NCBI GenBank assembly: GCA_004123355.1 | Contig: SCHM01000004.1 | Coordinates: forward strand, 4,863,017 to 4,927,016 | Length of the DNA: 64,000 nucleotides | From: Amphirosellinia nigrospora | Taxonomy: Eukaryota > Ascomycota > Sordariomycetes > Xylariales > Xylariaceae | Direction of reading: 5' to 3' | Shown here: positions 38,135-60,412 of the stretch, in pieces | Numbering within the stretch: the first letter of the stretch is position 1 | Layout: each line of letters starts with the position of its first letter | Notes under the pieces: model-generated | What the model was told of the DNA's origin: nothing | The model's input: the letters and a program-made list of their open reading frames with translations, nothing else | Database searches by the model: none | Position numbers and translations under genes: made by a program

Positions 38135-40012
38135 TCACTCCTCTCCATATGAGCTACAGTTAGACCAGTTGACCGGTTTCTTGATAGTAACCCATGGGGC
38201 TCGGGGTATGAGATTATTTTTTGTCGCCACATTCACCTCAACCACCTCGGTCTTGACCTGCATCTCGTCGATTTTCCCGCTCAGTAATTCAAAGCTGGTG
38301 TCGCGAAGCGCAAAATGACCCCCTCCGTCCATATCGTCCACCCATTCGCCGTTATACCTCCCGCTAGTAATGGCCTTGCGCGCTGCGCTCGCCTTCGTCA
38401 AGTATGCAACCTCATCCCCCTCAATTTTGACGATGCTGTTGTGCCAGGGGGTGGGGAGTTGGAAGTCGTACCTAGCCACGGGCTCGTGGCGGCCCTCGAC
38501 CTCATCGATTGGGCGCACTCTGTCCCTAGGGAAAAGGCGAATTCCAAATTTCGGCCCACGGTTATTATGCGCGTGGATGGAGAGACGGACGTAGTTGGGG
38601 AAGAGCAGCTCGAGAAGATTCGAATAGGCTTGATTTCGCAGTATCATCTCTGCTGCTGAGTTGGATGCCGTCTTTTTCTTCCGGGAGGCTGATTGGCCGA
38701 CAAACGCTGGCCCCGCGAGGTCCTGCAGCATGAAAAATGACATGCCACGATACGCTTTGAGAGTTTTAGGGTCTTGGGCTAGGATAAGGCCCCGAAAGTG
38801 CTTCCGATCGACGCCGCAGCTTGCCATTACTAGCTTGCGAGAAAGCTCAGTTGTCTCATAATGTTGGGTTTCAATAGGATGATTCAGAAGATCAGGATCG
38901 AGAACCAGACTGATCGAAAGTCTGGGTATTGTCCGAATGCGAAAAAAACAGGTCACTTAATCCACAGAATTTAATGGCTTCTCGGTCCGCTGCGGAGTCG
39001 AACATAGATCGGTACAGTTCTTGCAGATCTGATTCGTATTCGGACACCACATCGTCGCCAACGCCAACTGTTCGTTTCAAAAATTAACCGCCGCTTGTTA
39101 AATAAGGGAATTCTTCTGACTTACTACAACTGGACAGGAGATGACCGTCATGAATGATCCAGACTGTGGCCCCAGGCGCATATAGCTTCTTCACACTCTT
39201 GACAAAAGTGGAAAGTGTTTCCAACGCGATGCGCTCTGCCATATCCGGTCGGGATCCGCCGACCTTAGTATCGTTGGGAGATTTGCAAGGGAACGCAGGC
39301 AGTGCCATCTGGCACGCTTCGTTCCTATTTACAAAGTCCAAGACACGGTGGAAGAAGTACTTGCGACCTGAGATATCCCACTCATCTTCTGCCGCTGTGT
39401 TTCGGAGCATACGCTCAAACAGTACGGTAATTTGCTCGGCGACAAATTCACAATTACGGCGAGATGATGCCTTAGATTCTTGGTCAGCCGAGTTTGTAGT
39501 GCGATTTTTCGATTTCTGGGGTAAAACAATGTTTTCACCCATTCCCAAATTCTGGCGGCAAGAGACTTGGAGTCATGATGGGTGAAATCCCGCTGCTCCT
39601 GATCTAGAGGAGGCTGCAATGTGGTTCTCGAGACAAACAAGGTTTCGATCCATTCCTGGAATGCATCCTCGTGTTTGTCGTCAGACTGATGGACAAGGAT
39701 ACCGACGTAGCACTTAAAGCCTTCGCGATATATTTCTCGGGCTCGCAGTCTCGTGTGGGTTTGATTGGGAGAAGGGCCCGGAAGATTGGGCACTATATCA
39801 AAAGAACTCGTTTGAACCAGCAAGCCTGATGGCAAAGGTGTGAAGATAGGCTTGCTGGCTTTCAATTTTTCGAAGATTTCGGGCCAGCAACGTGTAATTG
39901 TGTCGGCCTCTTTGCCTTCGGTATTTAGGAGTCGGCCATCGGGGCTGCGGCAATACAGACCCAATGTGGAATGGAAAGGCGAGGAGCCGTGGTTGAGAGT
40001 CGACGACGACAT
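38135..40012 (-). CDS. Isocyanide synthase, stand-alone (DIT1/PvcA family)
   Basis: A member of the DIT1/PvcA family. Characterised relatives (bacterial PvcA/IsnA, fungal isocyanide synthases) turn the amine of an amino acid into an isocyanide using ribulose 5-phosphate; yeast Dit1 makes a formyl-tyrosine spore-wall precursor. Diagnostic blocks are ALPAFPCKSPN, PDMAERIALETL, IHDGHLLSSC, FCGLSDLFFS, NYVRLSIHAHNN and PTPWHNSIVKIEG. Exons are 40012-39125 and 39067-38135 (57-nt intron just after HLLSSC). The start at MSSSTLNHG (40012) leaves an N-terminal extension of about 150 residues. Frame breaks occur near 39530 and 38925. There is no dioxygenase or NRPS part, unlike its partner at 45-47 kb. 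Divergent from the MFS gene at 41.6 kb. Substrate cannot be told from sequence. Confidence 0.88.
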
Positions 40013-41569
40013 GGAGAGGGTGTATACTGTCGATCCACAACTATTTTGGAATATCAAGAACACGGATATCGGTAGGCTGGTGATATGCTCAACTCCTAGG
40101 TACAGCGGAGACACAAAGTGAGCGCACAGAGCTAATATAATATTGTCTGAGCGAGTGTATGTATATATTCGGTAAGGCCAACGCCTCCCCCTATCCCGCA
40201 AAAGCTCCCACACTTTACTATCCTTCTAGACTTCCTCGCATATTTTATTTCTCATGTCATACAAGCAGGTTTGCTACGCCGTTCTACGCCGCTTTGCTAC
40301 GCCGCAACATGAAGGAAAGCTGGGCAACGCTCATCGAGATGACGCCGATTCCAACAAGGGTGTCGTCGTCCTCGCCGTCGACACCCTAACTAGGTAAATC
40401 ATCGCACGAATGGAGGAAGTATTTGAAATCATTCACGTAAGGCCAGAGGCGAGGCGATGGCACTCCTGCTATTACACTACTAGCACCACAGCGGAGCTGA
40501 GTAAAAGGCCCGGCGCTTTGGGATAGATGAGACAAGATAGTCAAACGATCCTCCAGCAGAGGAAGGTAGGACTTTTAAGTTTCTCAGTCTAACCATACCA
40601 GTTATACAAGGCCGTCTGGCTCAGGTCAACTAAGCCTAACTTATTATGCAGCTGGGATTGTAATAAAAGTTTACCTACACGTACGTCGGCTCTCGGATAC
40701 GAATGGTATGTGTTGTCACACCAAAGGACTTCAAAAATGTTAGCACAATGACAGCCAAACTATAGGTTAGTGGAGAGGAGCGTTTCACCTCGTATTCACG
40801 TCGGAATTACGTGCCATAAGCGATATACATGTAACTACATGGGACCTTTGGCGTGTATACTACTCAAGCACTAAAGTATCTAGATGTACCTACTGTAGTA
40901 GGCTATATGTAGTCATGATAGCCTCTCAGAATTAGATTCCAGACCGGCGTTTCTGAGCTTCCTCATGCGGAGGAGGGAATTATTACCAACGCCTAAAAAG
41001 TTTTTAGTCTGGGCTCTAGCGATCGGATCACACCTTCCAGAACAAAGTCCTCTCAGGTGCCGCTAGAGTAAAGCATGGACCAACTACTTATTCCCTAAAT
41101 GTCTCAAGCGTCTGCAGCTAAAATTGTGGGCGACGAGTTCTTATGCCAAGACCCGTACGAGCAAGATTGAGCTAGTTTAGTAAACTTAGCTCGGAAGTGA
41201 TTGCAGCCTCACACACCATGCTAGCAGTCTCGGACGCGTGGGAGCGTGGGAGCTTTTGTGGAAAGGGGAAGACCCAGGCCTTGCCAAATACATGCTCAAC
41301 ATTGGACTACTTATCCTTGCCGTAAATCTTCTCTGTTTTAACACTAGCCTGGGCAGAATTTTGTGCATAACTTTACTAATCCGAACGTTCGATTCTCTTC
41401 ACCGAAGTGACGAGGCCAGCCGAACGCGGTCAAGCTAGCTTAAGGGTTTCTAATTTGATCACCTGAATGTTTATATGAGGAGTTTGTCCATTTCTTGGGC
41501 AATTGAACGCGGTGTTTTGTTCCAGTATATACTCCCGTGAAAAATGGCCCACGACGACACGTCATCAGT
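40013..41569. other. Divergent promoter region, isocyanide synthase / MFS
   Basis: A 1.55-kb spacer between divergent cluster genes, so it should hold the promoters of both. ORFs at 40159-40389 and 41186-41438 are not convincing. No regulator binding site can be named with confidence. Confidence 0.45.
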
Positions 41570-43131
41570 ATGACTGAGAAGGGCGAGAACCCATCGCCTG
41601 CGGTGGCACCCGTCCACAATGTTGAAGAATCCTCACAATCTAGTGTGGTTAAGGCAGAAGAGAGCGTGGTGGCGATGTGAATCCGTGCCTGATGTCGAAC
41701 AAGTCACGCCCCACCACCGAAGGAGCCATACACAGCTTACACTCTATCTCGGCAGAGGTTTATTCTTCTTATTGCCACTCTTGTCGGCTTCTTCGCTCCT
41801 CTCTGCGGCGCCGTGTATCTCCCCAGTCTGATTCTTTTCCAAGACATATTCCATGCATCCAGTCAAGTTATTAACGCGACGGTCAGCGTGTACCAGGCTG
41901 TTTTTGCCGTGACACCGTTGTTTGGCGCTGCGGCAAGCGACTATGGCGGTAGGAAAGGCGTCTACCTGGTCACCTTGTTTATCTTTCTCGTCGCCAACAC
42001 CATCTTGGCGGCAGTTCCTGCCAATATCGGAGCGTTGTTTGTTCTGAGAGTTTTTCAGGCCCTTGGTGCCTCTGTCGTAACATCCGTCGGCGCGGGCACT
42101 GTTGCGGATATAACGGTGCCCTCCAAGCGAGCCTCGAGAATGGGCATCTTCTTGCTGGGTCCTAATCTTGGACCGGTATTAGGCCCTCTTATCGGAGGCC
42201 AGTTTTCGACTCCCCATCTTTGGAGATGGATCTTTGGATTCTTGTGTAAGAGCCTCCGCCCTACTTTTGAGGTATGAAATACCCTACTGACTTGCCCTTT
42301 TTGGCAGCGATCGCTTGCTTCCCCGTCTATCTCCTTGTGGTGTTCTTTCTCCCAGAAACACTTCGTTCCTTAGTAGGAAACGGGAGCTATTTCGCTAGCT
42401 CTTCAGGATGGCTAGTTAAGCCTCGGCTACGGCAAAAGCGGATCGTACCTGAGGGTGCATACCCCAAACCGCCAAGGCTGACCCCCAAGAGGCTGTTCAC
42501 TTTGCTCACCTTTGTCCCCAACTTGATCGTTAGCGTTGGGTCGGGCGTGCAATTCGCGGGTCTGTACTGCATCTACATCTCTTTCCCACGCGTCTGGCAG
42601 GGGCGGTATGGATGGACTGGAAGCGAGACAGGGTACGCGTACCTCGTCCCGGCCGTCTTTCTCCTGATTTCTTCACTATTAGTCGGGCGCCTGTCAGATA
42701 TGATGTATCGTCGCTACAAGGCCCAGCATGATGGGCAGGCTCCCCCGCCAGAAAAACGCATTGACATGCAGATCTGGGGTTACCTCTTTGGCGCAGCTGG
42801 CAAGGTCATGTTTGGGTGGTTTGTCTACAAGAAACTTCATCCGGTGGCTGGCCTGGCCGCCAGTGCTATAGCATCGGTTGGAACCGGCCTTGTCATGGTC
42901 ACTAGTACCGCCTACCAGACAGAATGTCAACCCGGGGCTACTGCTTCTCTAGTGGCACTCGCCGGCTTGTTGCGAAACATTGGTTCCGCAATTTCCGCCG
43001 CTATTATCGATTCGGTGATGAAACGGTTAGGGATAGGTTGGTTCTTCACCGGTCTTGCCCTTCTAGATGTTGCGTGGACGGCTGGAATAGTTTATATCCG
43101 CTTAAGAGGACATACTTATCGCAAGTCATGA
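41570..43131 (+). CDS. MFS transporter, DHA1 (drug:H+ antiporter) type
   Basis: A 12-helix major facilitator of the DHA1 type, probably exporting a small molecule across the plasma membrane. The first helix is FILLIATLVGFFAPLCGAVY. The motif-A loop DYGGRKGVYLV follows, then VLRVFQALGASVV, and MGIFLLGPNLGPVLGPLIGG, the antiporter motif C region. A 62-nt intron (42246-42307) falls after WRWIFGFL; the second exon runs VRKxxx-free from ACFPVYLLVVFFLPETL to a stop at 43131. Start MTEKGENPSP (41570). Two opposing frame breaks lie in the hydrophilic N-terminal tail (about 41675-41715); the membrane part of each exon is intact. Divergent from the isocyanide synthase at 38-40 kb, so a cluster exporter is a reasonable inference. 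Confidence 0.88.
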
Positions 43132-45038
43132 AAGTCTAGTGCCCGCTGGAAGAATTCAATGGTTATATTTTATCATCCGATAGCTAGACATGGCCACACA
43201 AGTTTAATTAATTTCTATCGATACCATACTATACATACTCGTGTCACTATCCTACGGGTAGGTACTAGATTTAATAATCATCTTATGTCACTTTTAGACC
43301 CATTGCACTATATCGAAGATGAACAGGTGCTGCTTGTAGAGTTCACCTGACCTGTTTCATGATACCTATTCCCTTAAGGTTAGAGGTACCGTTGGTTGAC
43401 TTACAGGTTCCGAGAACTAAATTACACCAACGTGCAGAACTATGCAAATGGATGAGATTAACAAACTAAATTAGGAAAGCAGTGTTCTAACGTTCCTCTA
43501 GCTGAAAATCTCACTTTCCTCATCTACGTAGAATTTCGTCATGGCGTTCTTGGCAATTATACCATATAATACATGAAAAACTTGGTTTTTTTAGCGGTAG
43601 CCCGTTTGCGGCACATGGTCCATCGGACAGCGACGAGGACGCCACCGGCGAGAAGCGGATATACATATTCTGCAGCCGAATTAGCAGGATGGATTCTCGG
43701 ACGTCACGTTTTGATTTCCGCACCACAAACTAGCCGTATGTGGAAATCTGTATATATATATATATACCTATATATATTTAAAAAATTTTCTAATTCTTTT
43801 TATATAGCTTTAGTAATGAACGTTTACTTTTGCCTGTATAATTATTAACTTCAAGTTGTATATATAGTAGATGGTTATTTGGGAGGGAAAGCCTCTAAAT
43901 ATAGCTAGTTTGACGTGTAGAAATCAAAACGTGACATCCGAGAATCCGACCTGCCGAATTAGGAATACACCTAGATCTAATTGGTCTAGATAACTGGGTC
44001 TATGCGGTCCGGTCCGGAAGACTCGAACAGATCCGCTGAATACGGAGCTGGATGATAAAGATATGATTAAACAAATAATTATTAACAAGTAATCTAGCAC
44101 GAGTTTGATTCAAAACTATCTGTCAGAGATTGGATGTGGTAGAAGACTCCGTGAGGGGTAGCCCATATACACTGTGAATAGTTAGGTACCTTTCCTAACA
44201 CGGATAGACGGCTATTTATATGCCTAGTGGGTAGATTTGAAACTTATTAGTGCTGAACGGTCATTGTGTGGGGGGGAGGGGGGGTTTGGAATGGTACATT
44301 GTTAGTGATTTTATCTTTTTCTTAATGGGTTCCACATCTAACGGATAGATTCGAATCCTTCCAAGTTTGCTTTGCTAGTGTTCCCTCTTTTCCTCTTGGC
44401 AACGACTAGACGCTTTCTACGCCGCAGACTATAGCATTGTTAATTCCGCCGCACCAGGACTGAGTTTTTAGAAGACTTGGTAATGTTAAGATGTTAGAGT
44501 TCTAAATTGGATCTAGGCTCAAACTGCTTAGTCCAGCCCTGACTGATGTCCTTTCCCTACAACACCTACCCAAAGACCTAGCCGGTAATGCTTGACCAAA
44601 TACATGACACTATGACCAACATATATGAAGGGCTTCATCGGTCTGCTTACCCTGGTATGTCAAAGTAGCATTTGGCTTCATAAATTCCTGTTAGAGAATG
44701 AAGCGGCCTATCTTGACCATTTCTATCCCTGGAATGTGTGTTTTACATAATTGCGCTGATCTTATTCTGATTTTGATAGATGAACGACTTATCAAACTAA
44801 TTTGGCTAATTTTCCAAGTTCGGTCCTCCGCTGCTGCGCCCAAGTTATGACAGAAATACAAGCTTGTAATTTGTTGTTCTTACTTGTATACCTGTTGACT
44901 GAATATTTACTAGACTCGTGCATATATCTTCTGAGTACCTAATCTGAGCTACGGTGCATAACTATGTTGGGTCATGCTAGTATAATCATCAATTCCTACG
45001 CAATCCGTCAAACCCGCTAGTTGAAGGTGAAGGTTTTA
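43132..45038. other. Intergenic, AT-rich, with MITE-like element
   Basis: A 1.9-kb spacer with no supported gene. It holds a small inverted-repeat element (listed separately), a TA microsatellite near 43751-43780 and a G-rich run at 44269-44285. Confidence 0.5.
43679..43960. mobile_element. MITE-like element with about 55-bp terminal inverted repeats
   Basis: The left end (43679-43734, containing ggattctcgg and gtcacgttttgattt) is repeated in reverse complement at the right end (43904-43960). Long identical blocks are broken by a few mismatches, several of them C/T changes. The roughly 170-base interior is AT-rich, with TA repeats and no ORF. The size and structure fit a non-autonomous DNA transposon (MITE). 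No clear target-site duplication is seen. Confidence 0.65.
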
Positions 45039-46999
45039 CTAAAGACCCTTGTTCCAATCGAGATCAATGTGCCACGTTTCTCGATCGCACTCCGATGGAG
45101 ACGAGACGTATGTATGCGACACAGACGCATTATCGTTGACGAGAAGATCACCCTTTTCCCACGAAAAGCGCAAGGATGTGCGAAAATCATGTGTCATTTG
45201 TTCAATAAGCTGTACAAGGGACTGCTCCGCGTTTTCTAGAACAATCTTGTAAGTGGAGTACTTGCTATGATCGCCATCCCAGGGCGAATACCAGCACAGG
45301 CAAGGCACATTAGTGATAGGATGGCGCACAACGAGTGGGAGACCCTTGTATAAGTTTGACCCACAACCGTCATTAGTCATCTCCCAGGTGACTGGTTCTA
45401 ACCTTTCAAGATTCCATGGCGCGGGCAAGAAGCGGAAGAATAACCTCGAGTTACAGAAGAGAGTATAATCATCTCCCTTGGGCCTGCGTAGACAGGCAGG
45501 CGAAGAACTGGTATCCGGGAGAGCTGAGCCCTTTCTTGGCTTCGTCAAACGTGGTGGCGACGTTAAACGTGTTACCTGTCGGGGCCAAGGTCGAGATATT
45601 GCCTATCTCATGGCCCTTTTCGACTCTCAAGTCTTCATCAAGAGTTTCGCTGAATCCACGAAGAACTACTGGCGAGAAGTGGTTTGAAAGAAGCCGGACC
45701 TTCTGCATAGGTATTAGACGCATCGATGGTGAGTGATTCACTGGGCGGATGATGACACCGCAAGGATAAAGATGTTCGATGTCAACTTGGAGGCCTGAAC
45801 TACCCCAGTCAAATAGGTCGGACTTGACACGGAAGAAATACGGCTTTCCATCCTTATAAATGAGCTCATGGGTGTCCCGGACTTGGTCAGGGTAGACGGT
45901 GCGATATGACCCGTCAGCGTCGACGGCGACGACAGAGCGCCATGGCATCAATCCAACAGATCCCTTTTGATCAGCGTTGGGGATCAGCGCCAGAGAGAAT
46001 TTGTCCTTGCCGATCGAGTCGTGGATAGACAACCGCACATAATCGGGTAGGTTGGCCCGCAGTGCTGCGCCGTACGCCTTCCCTCGTTGGATCATCTGCG
46101 TCGCCAGATTTTGCGGGCTCTCGGTGGCCTTCCTGGCCAGGACCCCGACGTAAACAGCATGCGTCGTTGCCCAATCCTTGTCGGTTTTGACAGCAGCACT
46201 AGCGTCGAACTGTGCATCGCCGTATCTATAAATTAATTCCCGGCGAATGCACGTAGCATGCTCAACATAATAAGCCTTCGCCTTGTTCTGATTCTCTCGA
46301 CCAAAATGGCGGGCAGGATGCTCGAGTAGATCCCAGAGGCGGACGAACTTGATATTGCGAAACCCTTTTCTCGCTGCCATAGCCCTGAAGGCTTCGCCAT
46401 ACTCCCAGGCCGCTTCCTCAGGAACGCCCATCATATCTAGGAGCTTTTATGTTAGTATTGGGGCCAGAAGCTGGAACGAAACTTCACTTGCCGTTGTACA
46501 CCAATCCATCTGAGGAGATCAGAACCTCAGCCCCATTCTCATAGATGGCTGAAATATTATCGCAGAGACCTTGCAAATGGGCAAGTGCAAGCTCTTCCCC
46601 TAGGTCAGGCAACGGGCCAAGTACCAAATCTTTGGAGTTCTCTTTGAATGGGAATCCCGGAAGAAGCATGCGAACAGGGGCGCCGGCGGCAATCTGCTTT
46701 GTCACCATGGGCAGGAATTCGTTAACAGCATCCTGTGAACCAGGGTCTCTTTCGGAGACGACGCCATAGCTGGCGATGACAGCAAGCACTTTGGCAGCAG
46801 TGGCTTCGTGGGTCTGAGCGACGATGTCGTCGACAGAGCACTGTTTTTGAAAGACTCCTTTCAATTCTCCCACAAAAGCACTGCTTGTGCTGTTAGACAA
46901 ATCTGCAGTGGCAATGGCTACATTTGGCAGGGCTCCTTCAACAGGCGGTTCAGTCTGTAAAGGAGTCGGGGACTGGCTAGCGTCATGAACTGAGTCCAT
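45039..46999 (-). CDS. Isocyanide synthase fused to TauD-like dioxygenase domain
   Basis: A two-part enzyme. The N-terminal isocyanide synthase part (DIT1/PvcA family) shows MLLPGFPFKENSKD, LPDLGEELALAHLQ, SSDGLVYND, EYGEAFRAMAA, NLPDYVRLSIHDS and RPVNHSPSMRLIPM. The C-terminal part matches the Fe(II)/2-oxoglutarate dioxygenase (TauD-like) domain found fused to fungal isocyanide synthases: FSPVVLRGFSETLD, PGYQFFACLST, DDYTLFCNSRLFFRFLP, LPLVVRHPITN, LRFSWEKGDLLVND and SHT. The connecting stretch normally carrying the iron-binding H-x-D is missing. Exons are 46999-46492 and 46436-45039; the 55-nt intron uses a GC donor (GCAAGT), the only choice that keeps SSDGLVYND in frame. Another in-frame ATG is at 47026. 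One frame break lies near 45485. Divergent from the P450 gene. Confidence 0.88.
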
Positions 47000-48375
47000 T
47001 GCAACAAAGTAGGTAACACAGATCAAAACTCACAGAATGAGGCTATTTAGTCGGATTACATCGTGATAGTATCCACTAATGCGTAGTAAACGACCTTGAT
47101 ACTTGTATAGGGCAATGCCACTATCTAATAATACCCATTTAGGTTAACGAGATGAACGCCGTCCCGGCTACCTACTAAAAAACGCACTACTATATGCAAC
47201 TTTCTACAGTGGTGTTGCATGTACTAAGTATCTGGGGCATGGCATAGCAGCCGGTCATCACACCATCTTTGAATGCCAGCTCGGCACCAAACGGCACAAA
47301 ATTACCCCGGTTTAACGCTATCCCCTTGCTAACAATATCAAACAAACTACTTAAGAGGTAGTTAGTACCGACGGTAATTACGGTATTGGTAGCTCGAATG
47401 CAGGAAAATGAGGTGGAAACGAAAGCACGCAAAGTCTGTTGATTTCATGAGCTCATATCCTTGTCATCGGTCGAACTTTTGAATTTGGTGTCGAAATAGC
47501 ATTTATTCTCATATTTATGATTTGCATTGTACCGACTTACCTAAATCAGACTGCCTAAATTGCGTGGGGAACAGGATTGTCTCGTGGGGGCGTGATTAGT
47601 TTGTGTTGGGGGAAGACTATAGTAGCTCGCGTGGGGCTCCGCAAGACTGCCGATGGATCCTGGATGTATACTTGGGTATACTTGTAGTTTCAGCTTCAAG
47701 GATGCCACATAAATTCGGCAATCATTTAGTATACCCCACCCCCTCCATTTACAGGGACTAGGGATGGCAATGTTACATCAAATGAGTCAGCTTAAAATGC
47801 TCTTTGTATGGAATAATGGAATATGGAATATCCAACTCACAGTACAGTCCCGATCGAAAATCTGCCATCTCGCCAAGAGGAAAACACCTCAATATTCCCT
47901 CAGTATGAGCAAATACTTCCGATTGTTTCTTACGTCCTACTTACTACAGATTGGTGTCGCCACGGCATGTCCGAGTATTGCGAAGTATTGGAAGTCTCAA
48001 AATGTCAAGGCTTCCGAGATTTTGTGGAGTTGATATCGTCCTAAGTCGAAGGCTACAGCATACTAATTCACCCAAATTCTTTTGGGCAGGAGAGGCCCGG
48101 CGGAATGACAAGAAGCCCCGATCATTTCTATCCAGTAAGACCTTAGCGATATGATGCTTTCGGGCTATAATTTTTAGATCCCAGTATTTTCTAGTAGTCA
48201 TTTGATCTCTTATGCCGTGGAACTAAGTCCCCGGCATGTAACCGCCTTAAGGGCTCGGGAGAAGAGCAGCAAACCGAACATATTATCCACACTAAGGACC
48301 CTCTGTAAACGAGGTTCTACTGCGAAGACCTCTATGCATGCCGAAGTTGCTCGATAAGATCAAATTGACTTTAGT
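47000..48375. other. Divergent promoter region, isocyanide synthase fusion / P450
   Basis: A 1.4-kb spacer between two divergent cluster genes. ORFs at 47190-47432 (minus) and 47764-48154 (plus) show no motif and are probably noise. Shared regulation of the two genes from here is likely by arrangement only. Confidence 0.45.
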
Positions 48376-50012
48376 ATGCTCCTTCAGTGGTTTCTTGCGA
48401 GCGTTCTGCTCCTTTTCCTATGGGGCTGCTATGAGGTTATCACCAAGCTTGTTCTGCCCCCGGCGCATTTCCCCAAGAATATTCCTACCATCCCATTCTA
48501 CTACACCCTCATACCTCTTTTCAAAGATGTAGACCAAGAGGAGCTCTACCACAAATATCTTGAAAAACCATTAACGGAATGGGGTGCCGTGAATATATTC
48601 TTTGGGGGGCACTGGAATGTTCTCATCACCCGTCCGGCCTATATGGCACAAGTCCTCAAGCACGACGAGGACTTCCCTAAAACTGGAAACCATGTGAAGA
48701 ACCCTGACTCCGTCTTAGGTCGCTATACAGGGGAGAATATCATCAGCGCAGTTGGTGAGAATTGGAGACATTTTTCAGCCTTGGCAAAACCAGCACTGCA
48801 AGCAGATGTTAATGCTTCGATAATTGTCAAGAATACGCACAAATTGATTAGTATTCTTTTGGAAGAAAGTAATGCAAACCATCGTGTTGATGTGTCAGAT
48901 CATATCCAAGCATTTGCGATAGGAAACGTGACCGAGTCGTTGCTAGGCTCTAGTTTTGAGGTATGTCGCCATTTCGCTTCACATAGGTACACAGACTCGC
49001 CTTTGACACTTTGTTGGCAGGCACTCGGAAACCCAGACCACCCCTTGTTAAAGCTCCAGCGAGAGATAAAACCGAAGATATTCCACCCTGTTCACCTTAA
49101 CTTCCCTAGCTTGGATCGATTTCCCATTCCAAGTCGAGAAGAGGCCAAACGTCTAGTCGAAAAATTCAAAACCGAGCTCGCATCCCTTGTAATGCAAGGC
49201 CACAGACATAAGTGCCAGTTGGATAGTAATAACCTTGGATGCAGACTCCTCTCTGCTTATGGAAATGGGCGATTGAAGAGGCGAAATCTATTTCTACGCG
49301 AATCCACTACCAATTCAGCTGACCAATATGTGCTAGATCCGAGTATCATTTACAACAAAATTCACTCATCATGTTCGTTGCAGGGCATGAGAACCGATGG
49401 TTTGACCCTTACCAACTGTTTGTTCTCGCTGAAAAGCAGGATCTGCAGGAGCAAGTTCGCCAAGAGGTCATGGGTCTGTCACCACAGATCGACTGAATCC
49501 CGATGCGCTCGCGAAACCTCCGCTCTTAACTTCCATAATATTTGAGACCTTAAGGATGTACCCTCCTCTCTCCCAGATCATGAATAATGCACGGCATCAG
49601 ATGTTGTGCTGGAGAAGACATTTTCTTACGAGCCGGGACATACACCGGCTACAATGGTTACAGTACCAACCGGAACGTGATTTCTGGGGCCCGGATGCGG
49701 ACGTGTTTCGCCCCTCTCGGTGGGGAGAGCTGTCGAGGACATGGCTATGCTTTATAGGCGGGCCACGAGCAAGGCGGCGTTTATTACTTTCCATGGAGGA
49801 AAGCGTGCTTGTCTAGGCCAGAAGTGGGCAATGGCAGCCCATCGCGTGACTATGTCTATGTTTCTGACTTCTGTAAAGTGGCGCTTGGATCAACATGGCC
49901 TCGAAAGATGACACCGGTGAGTATTTACCATTTATAACAAAAGGACCCTGAAACTAATCCTTCGTCGTAGGCTGGTCCATTGATGCCTAGAAAAACTGAG
50001 ATTACAAGTTGA
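48376..50012 (+). CDS. Cytochrome P450
   Basis: A microsomal P450 of about 508 residues. It has an N-terminal membrane anchor (LLQWFLASVLLLFLWG) and a proline-rich hinge (PPAHFPKNIPTIPF). The I-helix region shows MFVAGHEN, the K-helix E-x-x-R is FETLRMYPP (49541-49567), the PERF-like segment is DVFRPSRWG, and the haem loop is FHGGKRACLG with the Cys ligand (about 49786-49815). Introns are 48961-49020 and 49917-49970; the second adds a short last exon ending PLMPRKTEITS. Frame breaks occur near 49290-49375, 49490, 49620-49660, 49735 and 49885. The sequence resembles P450s that sit beside isocyanide synthases in xan-type fungal clusters, where a P450 couples or oxidises the isocyanide; the exact reaction here is inferred. 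Divergent from the synthase-dioxygenase gene. Confidence 0.85.
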
Positions 50013-50766
50013 GCAGCTATAAAATGAGGCGTAATTCTAATGTATACAACCAAGCTTTCTTTTGCCAATACGTCTAGGTTTATTGTATCGATCCTGTTGT
50101 TAGATAAGGGATTAAATCCCCTTGGTAAGCTAGTCCTCAGCTACTTACATATTATACATAATGAAGTCCCTATGTTTTGCCAGATTAAAGTGATCTACAC
50201 TGATCTCAGTGGTTTCGCCACTCTCTTCTTCGCCCCGCGTCAAACATCGCCGGGTTGCAGCAACGCCGAGACTGTATCCAGTATTCTAAGATGTACATTA
50301 CTACGTACTTATTTATTTTGTATGAATAGATGGAAGACCGAAAGAGTGGATGTCTGGTGGACACCCTTCCTAGGGACCAGGGTGGGAAGAAGCCTAGAGC
50401 TTTCAACGCTTAGCGCATGCAGGAAACTGCCTCAAACCAGCTCATCCGGACCACTAGAGCCACCACGAATTGAACACAAAGCGCATGAAGCGAGATTCAA
50501 TTCCCTGCACCTTGTGAGCATATTATATCTAGAACGTTATCCGTTTCTTTCCTACGTAGTTGTAAAAGATCCCCGGATTAAAAGAAGCCAGCTTTCCCTT
50601 TGGTTAAGAGCAGGGTTGAGGTCAGGCCAGTTCATGCGCATATATGACCCCCTCGCGGCGATCTCAAATCTAGTGGTCCCTGCTACGCATCCTCTTTCAA
50701 CTATTGGATCTTGAACCAAACCCAAAGATCACGAGCGAGCAAGAATTGTAGAACGCCGTCGTAATA
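50013..50766. other. Intergenic between P450 and Atg22-like gene
   Basis: It contains a 224-codon plus ORF (50040-50714) with no recognisable domain, no splice signals of note and an unusual amino acid mix; I do not call it a gene. Confidence 0.45.
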
Positions 50767-52581
50767 ATGGACCCAGCTCGGTCCGCTCTGGGTGGCCAGA
50801 AGCTCGAGTATGGCACTGTCGTTAAATCGACTTCACCGTCCAACGACTCAACGGACGATCTCGAGAACTCTCGGCCTGAGACCCCAATCAAAAGCCCCCT
50901 AAGATCGAAGAGAGCACTGTGGGCGTGGTTGTTGGTGTGCTTTTCTGTAAGTGACCTTTATGATTTGTGATATTTGTTTCCCTCCTGATCATGGGGACAT
51001 TGCTGATTACTGGTGCAGACGGGCCCAACAAACGGTGTAGCCGGCAGGTATATTCCTGCTGTCTTGCAGTCCGTTGCAAACGCCGTCGGTCACATACCTG
51101 GCACTAATAAACCATGTGCGAAGCGTGGCAAGATTGTCTGCGTGGTCCCCTTCGGTCCTGGGGAGGTCGACTACAACAGCTATATCCTTTACCTACAAGC
51201 CATAAGTAGATCCGTCGAGGGTATTTTGACGCTTTTAGTTGCAGGAGTAGCAGACTATGGTAGTGAGTAAATCAGATCTTCTATTCTCCTATTTTTGGCG
51301 CTTTTGGCAGAAAAGCTAAGACGTGCCCTCCCCAGATTACCGGAAAGCCCTCATGATCATCAGCATCATCCTCTTCGGAGCCTTTGCATTGCCTTTCGCA
51401 TCCTTTACAGAAAAGACTTACGGCAATCTTGTCACGTATTCCTCATTATGGATTACGATGACAGTCGTATCCGCTGCCTACGGCCCAATTGAGTCTTCTT
51501 ATATACCACTGTTTATGCGGGATTCTGGTTGGTTCGACAGGGCCGAGACGGGACCTACTTCTGCCACACCGGTAGGAAACGAGGTACGCCACAAGTCACA
51601 GATAAATGTTGGCACCAGAGCCAGTGTTCTTTCTCTCGTTGCAGGAAACCTGGGGTCCATTATCTCCCTCCTAATCGGCGTGATCATCGCCAATACCAGT
51701 CGCTCAGGGGCCCAAGATGGTTATAGCTCGTTCCTTATCGCGATCACCGTTGGTGGTGCAATAACGGTCGTGCTTGGAGGCATCGGTTGGTTCTTCGTGC
51801 CCTCTGTCCCAGGGCCAAAGGCGCCATCAAAAAATCTAGCCTTCTTAGCCCTCAAGAACCGTATGTCTGTCTCAATAATTGTTATCATCCCAGTTGGCTG
51901 ACAGAGTAACAGAATTCAGCCTCTTGAAATCCTTTCGCAGGTACCCGGAGCCCTTCAAGCTCTGCATCGGCTGGGTGCTCTGGAACACGGCCAGTAGCAA
52001 TTTCCAATCGATCCTGGACTGGCATTCCGAGAGGTCAGCGGCCTAGGTACCGGGACCGTCTTTATACCGTATACTCCTTTTTAGGCGTCGCGATCGCGAG
52101 TCTCGGCTCTCTCGCCTGGATGTTCCTATATCCTGTTTTGTCGTGGAAGATCAAGAGCTACGCCTACTTTTTCTTCGTCATCCACATACTCTGGTGTTTT
52201 TGGGGGACTCTAGGTATCAGCGACAACGTGCCAATCGGATTCAAGCACACAGCCGAGTTTTGGGTCGAGCTCGCGGTCCTCAATCCAGCCACAAGCGCGC
52301 TGCGCGCTTGCAATAGAGTCATATACGCGGCCATGATCCCTAAGGGCAAGGAGGCGCATTTCACGGGCCTCGAGATCACGCTCGATCTTGCGACTGGGTG
52401 GATTAACCCGTTGGTGCAATCCGCGATCCAGGACGCGACGCATAATTTGCGTTATCCCATGCTCCCGAACCTGTTTCTCTTCTTAGCCGCTGGCGGGTTC
52501 TACCTCTGGTTCGACATCGAAAAAGGAATCGAGGATTCGATGAAGCCATGGGAAGAGGATGCTGTCGAGGAGGACTATTGA
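50767..52581 (+). CDS. Atg22-like transporter (MFS superfamily)
   Basis: A multi-helix membrane protein of the Atg22 family. Yeast Atg22 exports amino acids from the vacuole; many fungi have extra copies of unknown cargo. Exons are 50767-50946, 51019-51262, 51336-51860 and 51913-52581, with GT-AG introns of 52-73 nt. Typical blocks are ALWAWLLVCFS, TGPTNGVAGRYIPAVLQS, DYNSYILYLQAISRSVEG, YRKALMIISIILFGAFALPF, YEPF-type KSFRRYPEPFKLCIGW, FREVSGLGTGTVFIPY and IPKGKEAHFTGLEITLD. Frame breaks lie near 52025 and 52075. The final residues are acidic. It lies between the P450 and another MFS gene on the same strand, so it may move an isocyanide product or its amino acid precursor, which is inference from position. 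Confidence 0.85.
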
Positions 52582-55121
52582 CGAAAAGGGGTTCATAGCT
52601 TTGCTCCGTGCCAATGAAAGAAATAATTCAAATACAAGTTTACTGACTAAAGCTGCTACTTATCGCCAAAGCCGCCCAATTGCTACCTAATTCATATTAG
52701 ATCGCTTCGATTTCCCTGTAATTGCCTTTTTGAACCTAAGTCAATGCCCAGGCGGGCTCGAAGCTGCCTCCTGCCGGGGTTTCGTGGGGCGATGGAGGCC
52801 AGGATCTAATAACAAAGCTCTCGTCTTGGTGCGTGATGAATGCAACCACTGTGCCAACGCCCAGGATCTGACATGGACAAGGATTTTCGGAAGTTCATGT
52901 TAGCGTACGGCATGCCATGTGTGTACTAGGTTTGTAGGCGCTTTACGAATTGGGCACGATGTCGCAACGTCCATTGGCGCTAGCACAGCAGCTTATGCAA
53001 CATTCGCAAGCGTTGCTAGCGTGATACCACCTGGGATAATAGGCGTAGGTATGTTCGAAATGGTTCTACAAGAGATTAGTTTCCCTTTCGACCAAGGGTC
53101 ATGATGTTGACACCACGCTTAGTTGCCTGCCATCTAGGATTACGGGAGACACGCTTTTCAGAATTTGCTTGCTTCACCGGACGTAGTCTGATGACTTGGG
53201 GAACAGTTCAAAAGCGGTGATAGTGGTTCTTAGTGTACCCAGACATTACTATATACTGATTTGGAGTCCTCATATAGTACATGTAATGTGGTATCGAGCA
53301 AGATAACCTAAATTGTTACTTCGCGGAGGCCGGAAAGGCCATCCGAAAGACAGAATTCTTGTGAGAGAAAACATGACTAACTACTTTGAGACGTTTTGGT
53401 TTGACTGGTTATTGTTTTTTAGTAGTAAGGCGACAAGACCATCCTATAGGTGTATGTAAGGGGAAATATTGATTTACCTAGGTTGTTAATTGGAACTTAA
53501 TATTGCTCCTTACCAATATGAACTGGTTCAAGTTTGTCCATTTTATTGCCAGTAATGGTTCATATGGGCATTGCCATAGCTTTTGAAGCCTCAAATAGAG
53601 TAGATGGGTGCAGCCAAGTTCGCCAGCTTTGGGGGTCAATAGGTCTGCCATGCCCATGGAGCCAGTCTACTTTGCGGGCTTTAGGAATTAGCGTTATTGC
53701 AGCGATCGAAATTCTCACTTCGAACTGAATATACTGCCATTGATATATTTGTCGTTAACTCGAACATCATGTACATTGTAAAACAAATACCTTTGGACGG
53801 ATTCTAATGCCGCGGAGAAACCATTATCCCACGCGTCAGACTGGCCGCTGCAATCCTTACTGACCACCTCTCGGCCTTGCCGGCCACTTTCAGGGGTACA
53901 CGTACGAGAAGAACAAGATGATGGCCATAATGGAAATAGACAAGGTGCTGTATAGTTACGGCGTGGTTATTGCTACTCCTTTTTCGACAATATCTTGTAT
54001 TCCGAATGAACTTAAGCCTTTCAGATAGCTGATCGTCGTGATTGAGGTAAGTCTGTGTCATAAACGCCAGGGGCCTATCTTCTTGATTGGTTTTCGTTGG
54101 CTTCTACAACTATGTGGCGAACACCCAAGTACCTCTATCTCAAAACGGATTCTATTAGGAGGGTACTCAAGAAATGATAGGACTTCGTAGAAAATCTTCA
54201 CCGACGACGCCGGCCAGCACGAGATTTGAATAGCCTGAATTGTTGGCGATCCAACGTATTACGCTTCTATTTTGCTTGGGCTTACTTCACGTGTAATGTA
54301 TCGACAAGTTGACGCCGCAGTTGGTTTAAATGCACTTATGCCAAGACGCATAGCCCCTATAATTACTGAAACTGGCCCTAGACGTCAAGCTTACATGCCC
54401 GCAATGTTTTAGCTCCCGTGCTCCCGAGCGCTAGCGTTTGCCGAAGCTAATGCATGGAAATCGTCAATATACTAAGTCGTCTTTACTTCCGACCACTGAA
54501 CCTCACTATCTAAATATCAAAACAGCCCTACCACCGTGCTAGTAGATCTAATAAAGTGCTTGTATGTAAAGCTGGTGACGGTAGTACTACGACCAAAACA
54601 CCTGTACTGCATTGAATACAGTGGAAATTTTCGATAGAGATCACGTAAAGCCATTGTTTAACGGTTCTTGTATATACCTATCCCTGCAGGCCGAGTGACT
54701 CAACTCGCCGCGGCTGCTCACCAAATGTTTGGTTGTTGGTAGGCAGGGAATAAACAATCAAACCTGCCAAGATAAACAGTTCCTAATCGGAATAATCGAC
54801 ACTCGGCATCTTACTTGTTATCGTAATTGTTGTAACGGGACTCGTACGCTGTTACTGTTACATGCTATTTTCAATTCTTGGGCTGTGCCCCCTTCCTGCT
54901 CTCCGATCAGCTTTCATTTGCCAGACTATAGGAGAAAATTCCTGTCGCACCTGATTCATTGTTTGCTCTCGTTTGTTTAAAAGGAAGCACATCATATTTC
55001 GCTTCGCAATGTTGATATCTTCGCGTCAGGAGTTAATATGGTAGTCTTTCCAACTCCACCACGAGCACAAGAAAATCCTTGCCTATTCATATGTACGTTT
55101 TCATCCCGTTGTGGTAGTGCG
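52582..55121. other. Long intergenic region in or beside the cluster
   Basis: About 2.5 kb without a supported gene. Small plus ORFs at 52919-53104 and 53534-53728 show no family. The composition is AT-rich with no long repeat. The last 100 bases lead into the next MFS gene. Confidence 0.5.
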
Positions 55122-57079
55122 ATGGCAACGACGGGTGAGAGCGTCGCGGCGGCTACGGCCAATTCCAATTCACCCACCGCAGTCGAGGCGACGACATTGC
55201 CCCCTCCCTCCAACGCTCCCCGGTGATTGAAAAAACAAACACTCGAGAGACTACTTCGTTATCTGGACCGCAAGAAAAAGAGAAAATGAAAGCGCAAAAG
55301 GTGAATCGGATCCGGAGAAGAACGGCTCCGCCGAGGACGCATCTCCAGCACAAGAGGACGAGTCCCAGTATCCCCCATTTTGGAAATTGGTGCTTTTGAC
55401 CACCGGGTTGCTCTTCGCATTGTTCCTGGTGTCTTTGGTAAAATTCCCTGTTTGGTGGTGATAATGATGTTATACCTACCTGCTAACATTGATTCTCCGA
55501 CGTAGGACGGTACTATTCTAGCTACTGCCATCCCGGCCATCACCAACGAGTTCAATTCGCTTAACGACGTGGCCTGGTACGGAGGCTCGTACCTATTTGC
55601 GGTCTCTGCCCTACAGCTGCTTTACGGCAAGTTATACGCAACAAGGTCCGTCAAATGGTTTTCCTGTTTGCCGTCTTCGCCTTCGAGATCGGTTCCCTCG
55701 TCGCTGGTGTGGCTCCAACCTCGAACGCTCTTATAGTCGGGCGTACCGTCTCTGGTGTAGGAGCGGCTGGCATTTTTGCCGGTGCTATTATTATTATCGC
55801 TACAGCAGTTCCTTTGCGACAGCGACCTGTTTACACTGGTATCCTGGCAAGCACGCACGGTATTGCGAGTGTGGTTGGCCCTATGTAAGTCAGATAATAA
55901 CGTCAAAACTTACATTCAGAGTCCTGACCAAACAATAGCTTAGGAGGCGCTTTCGCTGATCATGTAACTTGGCGTTGGTGTTTCTACATCAACCTACCCT
56001 TTGGCGGCGTCACTTTAATATTCTTCTTTCTCTTCCTACCAGACCGACCGCCCACACAACCTCGCCTACCATGGAAGGAACAGATCAAGCAGTTCGACCT
56101 GCCTGGGACTTTTTTCCTCATCCCTTCCGTCATCTCCTTGCTGCTTGCCTTGCAGTGGGTGGCTCCAAATATCCGTGGAGCGATGGCCGCATTATCGCTC
56201 TTTTCGTGGTATTCGGTGTGCTGGCTAGTGTCTTCGTGTGCGTAGAGCTCTGGCAGAAAGATTTGGCTACCATCCCTTTGCGTATCTTGAAGAACAAGAA
56301 CATACTCGGCGGCGTATGGTATGGCGTGTGGTTAGGTGCTTCTGTTTTCATCTTCACGTATTACCTGCCCATCTGGTTCCAAGCAATTCAAGGCGTATCA
56401 GCCACCCAATCAGGCATTCATAATCTACCTAGTATTCTTGGACTAGTTGTATTTGCCTTATTTGGCGGTGGCTTGGCGACCGCACTGGCCAGTTCGTCCC
56501 ATTGCTTATTGCGTCCTCCATCATATCGGCGGTTGGCGCTGGTCTACTCAGCACCTCAAGGTCGACTCGGGCATTGGATTCTGGCTAGGGTATCAATTGA
56601 TTATGGCAGCAGGTGTAGGCATCGGCGCCCAAAATGTTATGCTCGTTGCCCAAGTAGCTGTTCCATTGACGGATATGGCCATGGCGACCTCCATTCTGTC
56701 ATTCTCACAAACACTCGCCTCTTCAATCTTCCTCGCTGTAGCGCAGAACGTCTTTCAGAATCAGCTTATCCATAATCTGGCCGCTAAAGCTCCTGAAGTG
56801 GATGCGATTTCCGTTATTAATCAGGGTGCTACAGCCTTGAGGAAAAGCGTCAGTGCCGAACAGCTTCCGGCCGTTCTCGTCGCATATAACAATGCAATTA
56901 TACAGACATTTTATGTTGCCGTTGCCTCCAGCGCTTTGTCCATCGCCGGGCCTGTTTTCATGGATTGGATTTCCCTCAAACAGCCAGAATCACTACAGAA
57001 AAATCCTGTCCCAGGCGCCAATGAGGGCTCGACCATCGATGGACAGTCTGCTGAGCTTAAATCTAGTGATGCCGTATAG
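55122..57079 (+). CDS. MFS transporter, DHA14 (14-helix) type
   Basis: A 14-helix drug:H+ antiporter of about 610 residues. After an acidic Ser/Ala/Pro-rich tail ([14 protein letters not shown]) comes [18 protein letters not shown], then [13 protein letters not shown], the 14-TMS motif. Later blocks are [67 protein letters not shown] and [15 protein letters not shown]. Introns are 55438-55505 and 55885-55938. Start at 55122; the ATG at 55038 is in frame but in a weaker context. Frame breaks lie near 55205, 55290, 55653, 56155 and 56490; at 56155 one g of a g-run appears lost. Such pumps often accompany specialised-metabolite clusters as exporters or self-protection. It is the last cluster-type gene before an AT-rich gap. 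Confidence 0.88.
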
Positions 57080-58576: not shown

Positions 58577-59080
58577 CTAGTAAGTCCTGCATTTGTTGAA
58601 GAGATTCCCGGCAGCGCCCTGGTGCGTCATCAGGAAACACTGGCTATAGCTTGTACCATCCCTTCGGCCACGACGACACGATGGGCTCCTGGGGCACCAC
58701 CAGTGTAGGAATTGCCGTTGCTGAGAATGGGGAATTCTAGAAGCTGCTTGCCCGCACACGGCGAAGGGTCAAGCTCCAAGTTGGTGCCGCCGTTTCTGAA
58801 GACAACCGGGTACGTTCCTATCCGGAATATTAGTCAAAATTAAACCCGGTGGTCAGATCAGAAGGTGCTTACTGGTTCCAGAGCTATAGTACGCGTTATT
58901 CTGGAGAGCAGTGACAGCGTCTCCAAATCCATTCTGAGCCTGCGCTAGAGAGAAACGCGTGCCACCGCAGTCGTAACCGCTGATTCGAGCTTCGAGTCTG
59001 GGCTTCTCGGTCCCTGAGGGGGCAAATACTGGAGCAAATAGGGCTGCTGCCACAAAGAGGAACGATTGAGTTACCAACAT
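58577..59080 (-). CDS. Secreted guanyl-type ribonuclease (T1/N1 family)
   Basis: A small secreted ribonuclease of the T1/N1/F1 family, which cleaves RNA after G. Exons are 59080-58873 and 58817-58577 with a 55-nt intron. The signal peptide is MLVTQSFLFVAAALFAPVFA. The mature part shows ISGYDCGGTRFS, then EFPILSNG (catalytic Glu as in the EFPI motif), GGAPGAHRVV (catalytic Arg) and THQGAAGN with the last catalytic His, ending near a Cys. All three catalytic residues are visible but not in one frame: a break of one base lies near 58643, between the Arg and His motifs. Coding length is one base short of a whole number of codons, so one base appears lost. It is either a sequence error or an inactivated gene. 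The sarcin-type ribotoxins are distant relatives, but the size and motifs here favour the ordinary T1 group. Confidence 0.82.
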
Positions 59081-59942
59081 TTTGGTGAAGAAAAGTTTTC
59101 AAAAGAGGAAAAGAAATTCCGTGAAGACTCAATGAAGAGCAGATTTCGAGATGCTAAAGGCCGATGAATATGTTGTGATGCTTGTTGGTCTGTTCCACAG
59201 ATGATTTTATGAAGAGAAAGTCATCAGGTTTTATATCCTCCTGGGCAACCTTGAGCATTGACAGGAGCTGCGGTTTGGCTTATGAGGTACTCGAGAGGGT
59301 ACTAAATTGCGAGGCCATGTTCATGCGATAGACGGTTTTCTCCCTCGGCATCAGGCAACCCCGTCGTGTTAACAAGGACGATCGAGCTTGCTAAGCCAGC
59401 ATGTAAAGTCCTTTGGGGGGGGGGCCGAAATCCATTAGGATTTGCAGATCTTCTGCGAGGCGTTAATCAGTTGACAGGTCGTGATAGCACATCAGGCCAT
59501 CACTTCCAGGTTTGGATACATTCTATTGTGTTATTTTCTAGTTTTTCGGCCGGCTGACAATTCGAATAGATTAAAATAAGGTTCCGTCAACATAGCCTGG
59601 AGGAATTAGGAATGTCGTGTGAGATTGACGATTGGATGTGAGCTGTGCGGCTGAAACGCAGCCCTGATCAAGTCATGCTATTGTTGATCCTCCTTATTGT
59701 CTTAATTCTGAGCACGTCATAATAACACCGCAATCTGTTCGTCATGATATAGTTGGAAATACTTACCTTCAGTATCAACGAGCTCGCAAATGGGGAATAT
59801 AAAAGATGCTCTTTCTCCTTCACAGGAACTATCTCTTTTCTTAGACACCCATCCTCACCACCAACAGCAAGCCCCTCTCTACAACATCTCAAATCCCACT
59901 CAGCAAATCTCCAACTCTTCACTCCTCTTACATCTGTTCAAA
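59081..59942. other. Divergent spacer between two secreted-protein genes
   Basis: About 0.86 kb. It contains a short G10 run (59415-59424) and small ORFs without features. It should hold promoters for both the ribonuclease (minus) and the next secreted protein (plus); the plus leader (59880-59940) is C/T-rich. Confidence 0.5.
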
Positions 59943-60412
59943 ATGGTTCATTTCGCCTCCTTCGCCCTTACCGCCTTTGCCTGCGCTGGCACCGTCGTCG
60001 CCAAGAGTTGCAAGAGCGGTGGCATCTACTGCGGCTTCGCTCTCCTCGACAGAGGTAAGTTACTTCAACGCTATCGACACTCCAAAGGCAAATCATGCTT
60101 ATCATTCCTCTAGGTGACTACGTCAACAAGATCATCACCAACCTGCAGGCCAGCAACGAGCCCACCGATGACCTGCACATCAACCAGAGTCTGTGGACCT
60201 GCCTCGAGCACGGAGACATCAGCTTAAAGTCGTACTGCACCCTAGGTTGCAACGGTGGTGACAGCAATGATGACTACTGCAACGGGTCTCCTGAGCAGGT
60301 TGCACAGGATGCCCAGGATGCCGCCGAGCTGGCTGCCGAGAATTTCCGCCCGTCGCGGGGCTGCTTTCACTGCCTAAGCAACCATTCAAGCTATTTAGAT
60401 TTCTATATCTAG
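59943..60412 (+). CDS. Small secreted cysteine-rich protein
   Basis: Exons 59943-60054 and 60114-60412 (59-nt GT-AG intron) encode 136 residues with no frame break needed. The signal peptide is MVHFASFALTAFACAGTVVA. The mature chain starts KSCKSGGIYCGFALLDRGDY and has VNKIITNLQ and SLWTCLEHGDIS. The Cys pattern continues SYCTLGC, DYCN and CFHC, about nine in all. Small proteins with the same SCKSGxxYCG start are common in filamentous fungi and are usually listed as hypothetical secreted proteins. The last 25 residues (after ENFRPSRG) look less conserved and might follow a missed frame change. No function can be assigned; an effector or antimicrobial role would be speculation. Confidence 0.78.

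Follow-up and report, generated by a model that had tools for sequence, protein, structure and literature searches.

A probable dit-type gene cluster with a second, XanB-like isocyanide synthase in Amphirosellinia nigrospora

We analyzed a stretch of 64,000 nucleotides from the genome of Amphirosellinia nigrospora (Xylariaceae; assembly GCA_004123355.1, 48.1 Mb in 11 contigs), corresponding to C6:4863017-4927016 (contig SCHM01000004.1) and referred to below as the window. A preliminary description had placed within 19 kb of it a cluster of six genes, comprising two isocyanide synthases (ICS) of different architecture, a cytochrome P450 and three transporters. All six were found where they had been placed, with domain matches far beyond chance that were confirmed by Pfam on single open frames (Table 1). 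Both synthases carry an ICS domain, which stands alone in synthase 1 and is fused to a TauD dioxygenase domain in synthase 2. In the order of Table 1, the genes form two divergent pairs followed by two transporter genes. Among the matches listed, the closest proteins to synthase 1, synthase 2 and the P450 all come from Xylaria.

Table 1. The six genes, their Pfam matches and further ICS loci of the genome (window positions unless a contig is given; MFS, major facilitator superfamily; TM, transmembrane).
Feature	Position	Strand	Pfam match	Basis of assignment
Synthase 1, Dit1 (single ICS domain and long N-terminal part)	38138..40012	-	DIT1_PvcA 38138-38956 (-), E 2.4e-38	Pfam, homologues, alignments, trees
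DHA1-type MFS transporter	41570..43131	+	MFS_1 41693-42274, E 1.5e-25; 42271-43128, E 6.8e-9	Pfam MFS_1, NCBIfam, sequence
Synthase 2, XanB-like ICS-TauD	45039..46999	-	DIT1_PvcA 45472-46446 (-), E 6.6e-39; TauD 45042-45602 (-), E 1.3e-9	Pfam, homologues, alignments, tree
P450 of Dit2 kind	48376..about 50010	+	p450 48358-49542 (+), E 3.7e-10	Pfam, homologues, alignments
Atg22-like transporter	50767..52581	+	ATG22 51320-51898, E 7.1e-26; 51928-52578, E 2.3e-46	Pfam ATG22, sequence
DHA2 (14-TM) MFS transporter (several frames, 5' end approximate)	55110..57079	+	MFS_1 55565-55885 and 55928-56242	Pfam, NCBIfam, six-frame reading
Further ICS locus, ICS-TauD kind	C1:8967580-8968416			
Further ICS locus, ICS-TauD kind	C5:1942796-1943734			
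Further ICS locus, ICS-TauD kind	C8:564813-565757			

Synthase 1 had been described as a stand-alone DIT1/PvcA-type synthase; the DIT1_PvcA domain is present, and the assignment can be refined to Dit1. It matches best to Xylaria proteins of the Dit1 type (74% identity to X. acuta), and both matches and trees place it in the Dit1 clade together with proteins of Saccharomycodes, Coccidioides, Aspergillus and others. Mutual matches between Dit1 proteins and ICS-TauD proteins are weak, and grouping with the spore-wall Dit1, named beforehand as an outcome that would refute the preliminary reading, was found for synthase 1 and not for synthase 2. The gene has one intron (39124-39068), and its frame is broken twice, once near 39485 and once somewhere from about 38949 to 38906. 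A further candidate intron (39538-39471) was rejected as probably coding, since X. acuta P0121 aligns through the segment; the gene model that treats it as an intron underlies the synthase 1 homologue search, both Dit1 trees and the count of invariant columns. That count covers 178 aligned columns without variation among 18 relatives, of which the window alters one (1/178).

The ancestry of synthase 1 was analyzed in two trees of chosen rows, one with 63 rows (62 of the 120 listed Dit1 matches plus the window) and one with 39 (38/120 plus the window). The Dit1s of Xylariaceae fall into a single clade (100/99), next to which stand Pleosporales Dit1s. The sister of the window's Dit1 is a second copy of the protein in Pleosporales; other Sordariomycete Dit1s stand apart, those of Hypoxylon, Durotheca and Colletotrichum falling elsewhere in the tree. 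Five Pleosporales species have two different Dit1s, which fall into separate, clearly distinct groups of the 63-row tree (P0145/P0164, P0151/P0165, P0157/P0167, P0152/P0185 and P0156/P0190, one species each). Forcing the Dit1s of Xylariaceae, Hypoxylon, Durotheca and Colletotrichum into one clade was rejected on the 39-row tree by the approximately unbiased (AU) test (log-likelihood 212 lower, p-AU 2e-57), the group having been picked after the 63-row tree had been inspected.

The P450, initially likened to the enzymes beside xan-type synthases, is present and, by its matches, is of the Dit2 kind, with 82-83% identity to ‘Dit2 protein’ of Xylaria (83% for X. cubensis, over the part searched). 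Dit2 proteins of Xylaria and Nemania head its matches, followed by Aspergillus P450s and the yeast Dit2p (Kazachstania); we take CYP56 to be the name for P450s of this kind. No second close Dit2 copy was found in the genome, the next-best match showing 32% identity. Dit1 and the P450 are transcribed away from each other, as in Saccharomycotina, and lie 8.4 kb apart; the P450 is also divergent from synthase 2. Of its introns, one is placed at 48961-49020 and others are less sure. For 14 of the 16 named Xylariales Dit2 matches, a Dit1 match was found on a contig of identical length.

Homologues of synthase 2 include proteins named xanB (44-48% identity), and outside Xylariaceae and Pleosporales its closest relatives are XanB-type proteins, both among the matches listed and in the tree. 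The gene contains a GC-AG intron (46491-46437) and a frame break near 45486; if this break is not bridged, the protein has 491 amino acids and terminates inside the TauD half. Within that half, the HxD loop is missing (33 alignment columns) and the arginine of the conserved WRIH motif, presumably a 2-oxoglutarate-binding residue, is changed to histidine. Compared with 15 full-length Xylariaceae relatives, 24 of 108 invariant columns are changed and 13 gapped in the TauD half, whereas the ICS half shows changes in 3/128; the worst other row has 8 TauD changes. The reference rows for this count exclude P0018, which itself has no HxD region. Synthase 2 thus combines a conserved synthase half with a TauD half that has drifted and lost its iron ligands. 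An assembly fault is unlikely to be the cause of the missing HxD, because the three other ICS loci of the genome, all far better matches to ICS-TauD proteins than to Dit1, keep this motif (3/3); the distal HTR motif was seen in two of them and not in the third.

Loss of the iron site is not confined to the window. The ICS-TauD tree was built on the ICS half of 43 chosen rows (42 of the 120 listed ICS-TauD matches plus the window), with the relatives' gene models as deposited, which may hide frame breaks. The iron ligands H, D and distal H are retained in 32 rows and not in six (the window, X. arbuscula P0017, X. bambusicola P0018, Nemania NC0429 P0019, X. telfairii P0022 and the metagenome P0023), and five without a TauD half in the gene model were not counted. 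Outside the Xylariaceae group, all rows having a TauD half are intact (13/13). Four changes are needed to account for the losses on this tree (three to four in bootstraps; the starred branches force three). The ratio of TauD to ICS difference ranges between 0.35 and 0.87 in nine pairs of intact Xylariaceae proteins, between 0.50 and 0.92 in eight pairs from other fungi, and between 1.44 and 2.62 in eight pairs with a broken member. However, the split is not clean: the pair P0011-P0012 reaches 1.29 with iron ligands kept, the TauD halves of X. arbuscula P0011 and X. venustula P0012 having drifted in 19-21% of invariant columns, and raised change is also found in the ICS half of P0017 and P0018 (16-17%). 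Judged by its alignment, Dit1 is not loosened in species whose TauD half is broken, with altered invariant columns of 2/182 in X. telfairii, 0/180 in X. bambusicola and 4/184 in X. arbuscula.

The pairing of the two synthases is conserved in related species. Linkage was called when matches bore the same organism name and lay on contigs of identical length, based on 120 of 203 ICS-TauD matches and on the Dit1 proteins P0121-P0144 without the metagenome P0142; the X. curta fragment P0179 (3.4-kb contig) was not counted. For 21 of 23 named Xylariaceae-group Dit1 matches, an ICS-TauD match of the same organism was found on such a contig. Seven of the 21 shared contigs are at most 142 kb long; the others reach up to 2.1 Mb, where sharing is not adjacency. 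Closer linkage is indicated by locus tags, which stand two to four steps apart for Dit1 and ICS-TauD in four species: X. hypoxylon (ICS-TauD/P450/Dit1, g8890/g8892/g8894), X. multiplex (ICS-TauD/Dit1, g6309/g6311, no P450 tag), ‘L. mahajangana’ (ICS-TauD/P450/Dit1, g341/g340/g338) and Xylariales 14919 (ICS-TauD/P450/Dit1, 099920/099910/099890). In the latter two the tags run Dit1, one gene, P450, ICS-TauD, so that P450 and ICS-TauD look swapped relative to the window.

As in the Dit1 tree, the sister of the Xylariaceae group in the ICS-TauD tree holds Lindgomyces, Westerdykella, Sporormia and Pyrenochaeta, and in these four the Dit1 and ICS-TauD matches share contigs of 0.42-2.4 Mb. Since both trees give the same Pleosporales sisters, whose two genes share contigs, the Dit1 and ICS-TauD genes seem, as far as trees can tell, to share a joint history, which fits an old duplication followed by losses as well as a transfer between classes. 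For seven other Pleosporales Dit1s of the same clade, no link to an ICS-TauD gene was found among the matches listed. Zopfia (P0159, P0072) was rejected as a linked pair, its common 5.8-Mb contig being taken as chance and its Dit1 belonging to the other Pleosporales group.

Regarding the transporters, the DHA1 gene is divergent from Dit1, with about 1.6 kb in between. It has an intron at 42246-42307 (by eye), a frame problem near 41675-41690 and NCBIfam matches of the Bcr/CflA drug:H+ antiporter type, all below curated cut-offs. By its sequence, the protein is of the same class as yeast Dtr1, a likeness at class level; Dtr1 is a DHA1 protein and exports bisformyl dityrosine, according to passages of PMC4021133. 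The Atg22-like gene shows several introns by eye and frame hops near 51990-52080. As a guess, its product might transport amino acids at the vacuole, uptake being mentioned for fission yeast in passages of PMC4471098. The DHA2 gene has NCBIfam matches of the DHA2/EmrB type (14-TM); like the Atg22-like gene, it is a candidate member of the cluster.

The combination of genes had been described as matching no familiar cluster, a view that is not supported here. Synthase 1 belongs with Dit1 and, judged by its matches, the P450 with Dit2, and two-synthase clusters are already on record. By sequence, the locus reads as a variant of known systems, namely of the dit family, rather than an unmatched cluster. 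The dit superfamily of Nickles et al. includes dit1/dit2 clusters, as stated in the text sections consulted (PMC10153163), and the window resembles these in having Dit1 and a divergent Dit2-kind P450 at one locus and a DHA1 transporter beside Dit1. Unlike them, it includes a XanB-like ICS-TauD gene, its Dit1 and Dit2 are not adjacent (they are in yeast), and its Dit1 groups with the second Pleosporales copy, away from other Sordariomycete Dit1s. With the xan cluster of Aspergillus fumigatus it shares a XanB-kind ICS-TauD and a Dit2-homologous P450, as far as that cluster is described in passages of PMC5974471; here, in contrast, Dit1 is present, the TauD half has no HxD and the window holds no hydratase-family match. 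Two synthases in one cluster are also found in the A. fumigatus 4G cluster, described there as a single-domain icsA with an ICS-dioxygenase icsB, and in GCF 1 of Nickles et al. Both synthases of GCF 1 come, in the sections consulted, from one ancestor outside the dit clade (PMC10153163), whereas one of the two is Dit1 here; icsA/icsB were compared by description. In the literature text searched, we found none on Dit1 together with a XanB-type synthase or on ICS clusters of Xylaria, and the consulted text of the Nickles et al. preprint (PMC10153163), apart from its figures, supplements and website, contains no word starting with ‘Xylari’ or ‘Pleosporales’.

Taken together, we consider it reasonably probable that the locus belongs to the dit type of cluster and holds, in addition, a XanB-like synthase. 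Most simply, the pathway would be of the dit type, with tyrosine isonitrile coming from a second supplier as well. From L-tyrosine, Dit1 would make either N-formyl tyrosine or tyrosine isonitrile; two such units would be coupled oxidatively by the Dit2-type P450 to a dityrosine-like dimer, which the DHA1 transporter would export, in parallel to the export of bisformyl dityrosine by Dtr1 in yeast. Synthase 2 would supply further tyrosine-derived isonitrile. In relatives with an intact TauD half, this isonitrile would also be desaturated and decarboxylated, as is thought for XanB. Here, with the iron ligands of the TauD half gone, synthase 2 is expected to carry out just the first step and to stop at the amino-acid isonitrile, which would shift the product from a vinyl isonitrile towards a Dit1-like unit. 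The product may end up in the spore wall or be secreted. A spore-wall role is suggested by analogy with yeast, where Dit1 and Dit2 yield N-formyl tyrosine and bisformyl dityrosine (passages of PMC7345447), and with Coccidioides, where DIT1, DIT2 and DTR1 lie in a six-gene cluster and their deletion thins the spore wall (passages of PMC12077801).

Several observations weigh against this interpretation. Dit1 and Dit2 are separated by the DHA1 and synthase 2 genes. Among the ICS-TauD matches listed, Nemania serpens and Xylaria sp. FL0064 have none, with Dit1 and Dit2 on one contig; conversely, ICS-TauD matches of X. scruposa, Nemania NC0429, Xylaria FL0043 and X. grammica have no Dit1 match on the same contig among those listed. 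The end branch of synthase 1 measures 0.25-0.26 in both Dit1 trees, against 0.06-0.12 in its nearest relatives, which could reflect relaxed selection or misread letters. Furthermore, the role of Dit1 as isonitrile maker is disputed (in the parts consulted, PMC7345447 argues against it and PMC13005658 for it), and the locus would offer a natural comparison for this dispute over isonitrile versus N-formyl tyrosine. It joins two known fungal ICS tyrosine pathways, one structural (dityrosine) and one defensive (xanthocillin), in many culturable species. Moreover, single-domain synthases are proposed by Nickles et al. to have arisen by repeated TauD loss from ICS-TauD ancestors (PMC10153163, as far as consulted); such loss is visible here as an ongoing process, with some close relatives retaining the iron site and others lacking it, and is hence testable.

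Alternatively, synthases and P450 could make a secreted, xanthocillin-like product, either a di-isocyanide or a mixed isocyanide, with a copper-binding or antibiotic function and without involvement of the spore wall, a reading that we regard as unlikely. The kinship of synthase 2 to XanB-type proteins fits this idea, as do the two further transporters adjoining the cluster and the finding that XanG, which makes xanthocillin together with XanB, is itself a Dit2 homologue (passages of PMC5974471). Yet the TauD half needed for a vinyl isocyanide has no iron ligands here, and other features were looked for without success: the XanA-type isocyanide hydratase family PF01965 has six matches in the genome and none on contig C6, and Zn2Cys6 has no match in the window (150/204 candidates scored). 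Copper motifs, which we take to be TGTGCTCA and TTTGCTCA (Mac1/MacA-type), do not exceed chance in the window either (2 versus 2.3 expected and 3 versus 2.6 expected, respectively); apart from one TTTGCTCA match at 47906-47913, in the interval separating synthase 2 from the P450, the matches lie outside the cluster promoters.

A bolder proposal, which we put forward only speculatively and rate slightly lower still, is that dit and xan pathways have merged. One Dit2-kind P450 would receive its substrates from two synthases that differ in ancestry and would give a mixed tyrosine-isonitrile dimer. The TauD half would be a non-catalytic remnant in several Xylariaceae, switching the product from xanthocillin-like to dityrosine-like, and the pair would have stayed together, either through a move between Pleosporales and Xylariaceae or by retention in both.

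It is improbable that the cluster is dying, its genes being pseudogenes with real frame breaks. None of the six genes is free of breaks, as judged by eye or from alignments, the TauD half is plainly drifting, and the P450 has nine breaks between 49401 and 49992 (about 590 bases), a higher density than in the housekeeping genes examined. However, housekeeping genes of this assembly (HSP70, RPB2-family, some CCT) are also frame-broken or contain stops, e.g. at C8:855379-857197, C7:1398639-1400274 and C8:649268-650336. HSP70 is split into three abutting pieces on both C8 (profile 1-156, 156-458 and 457-598) and C7 (profile 23-142, 141-304 and 304-575), which leaves no space for an intron. Splits also affect an RPB2-family gene (C8) and CCT genes located on C1 and C4, but two CCT genes of C6 are unbroken. 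Taken alone, frame breaks are therefore weak evidence, and gene calls on this assembly need care. The cluster breaks are probably assembly errors, because drift would have altered many residues too, yet the identity of the P450 to X. cubensis holds at 0.83 before 49280 and 0.80 after it (somewhat favourable figures, as the aligner picks the frame), and Dit1 and the ICS half of synthase 2 are hardly altered. Decay of the whole cluster was dropped on the basis of these housekeeping controls and constraint counts; it was retained for the TauD half, in which breaks are accompanied by substitutions and a deletion.

That a dit cluster merely adjoins a lone ICS-TauD gene by coincidence is least likely of all: the two divergent pairs have separate promoters, no promoter words common to cluster genes exceed chance and no linkage of the Atg22 and DHA2 genes was established in relatives, but the pairing recurs across Xylariaceae, down to neighbouring tags in four species, and both trees share the same Pleosporales sisters.

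The region is flanked by genes for a 2EXR-family protein (32895-34142, +) and a DUF3632 protein (62227-62772, +). Between the cluster and the latter, a small cysteine-rich, apparently secreted protein is encoded in pieces at 59748-60409 (+), the piece 59748-60110 having no Pfam match. The start of another small secreted protein (58856-59098, -) resembles, by eye, a guanyl-specific fungal ribonuclease.

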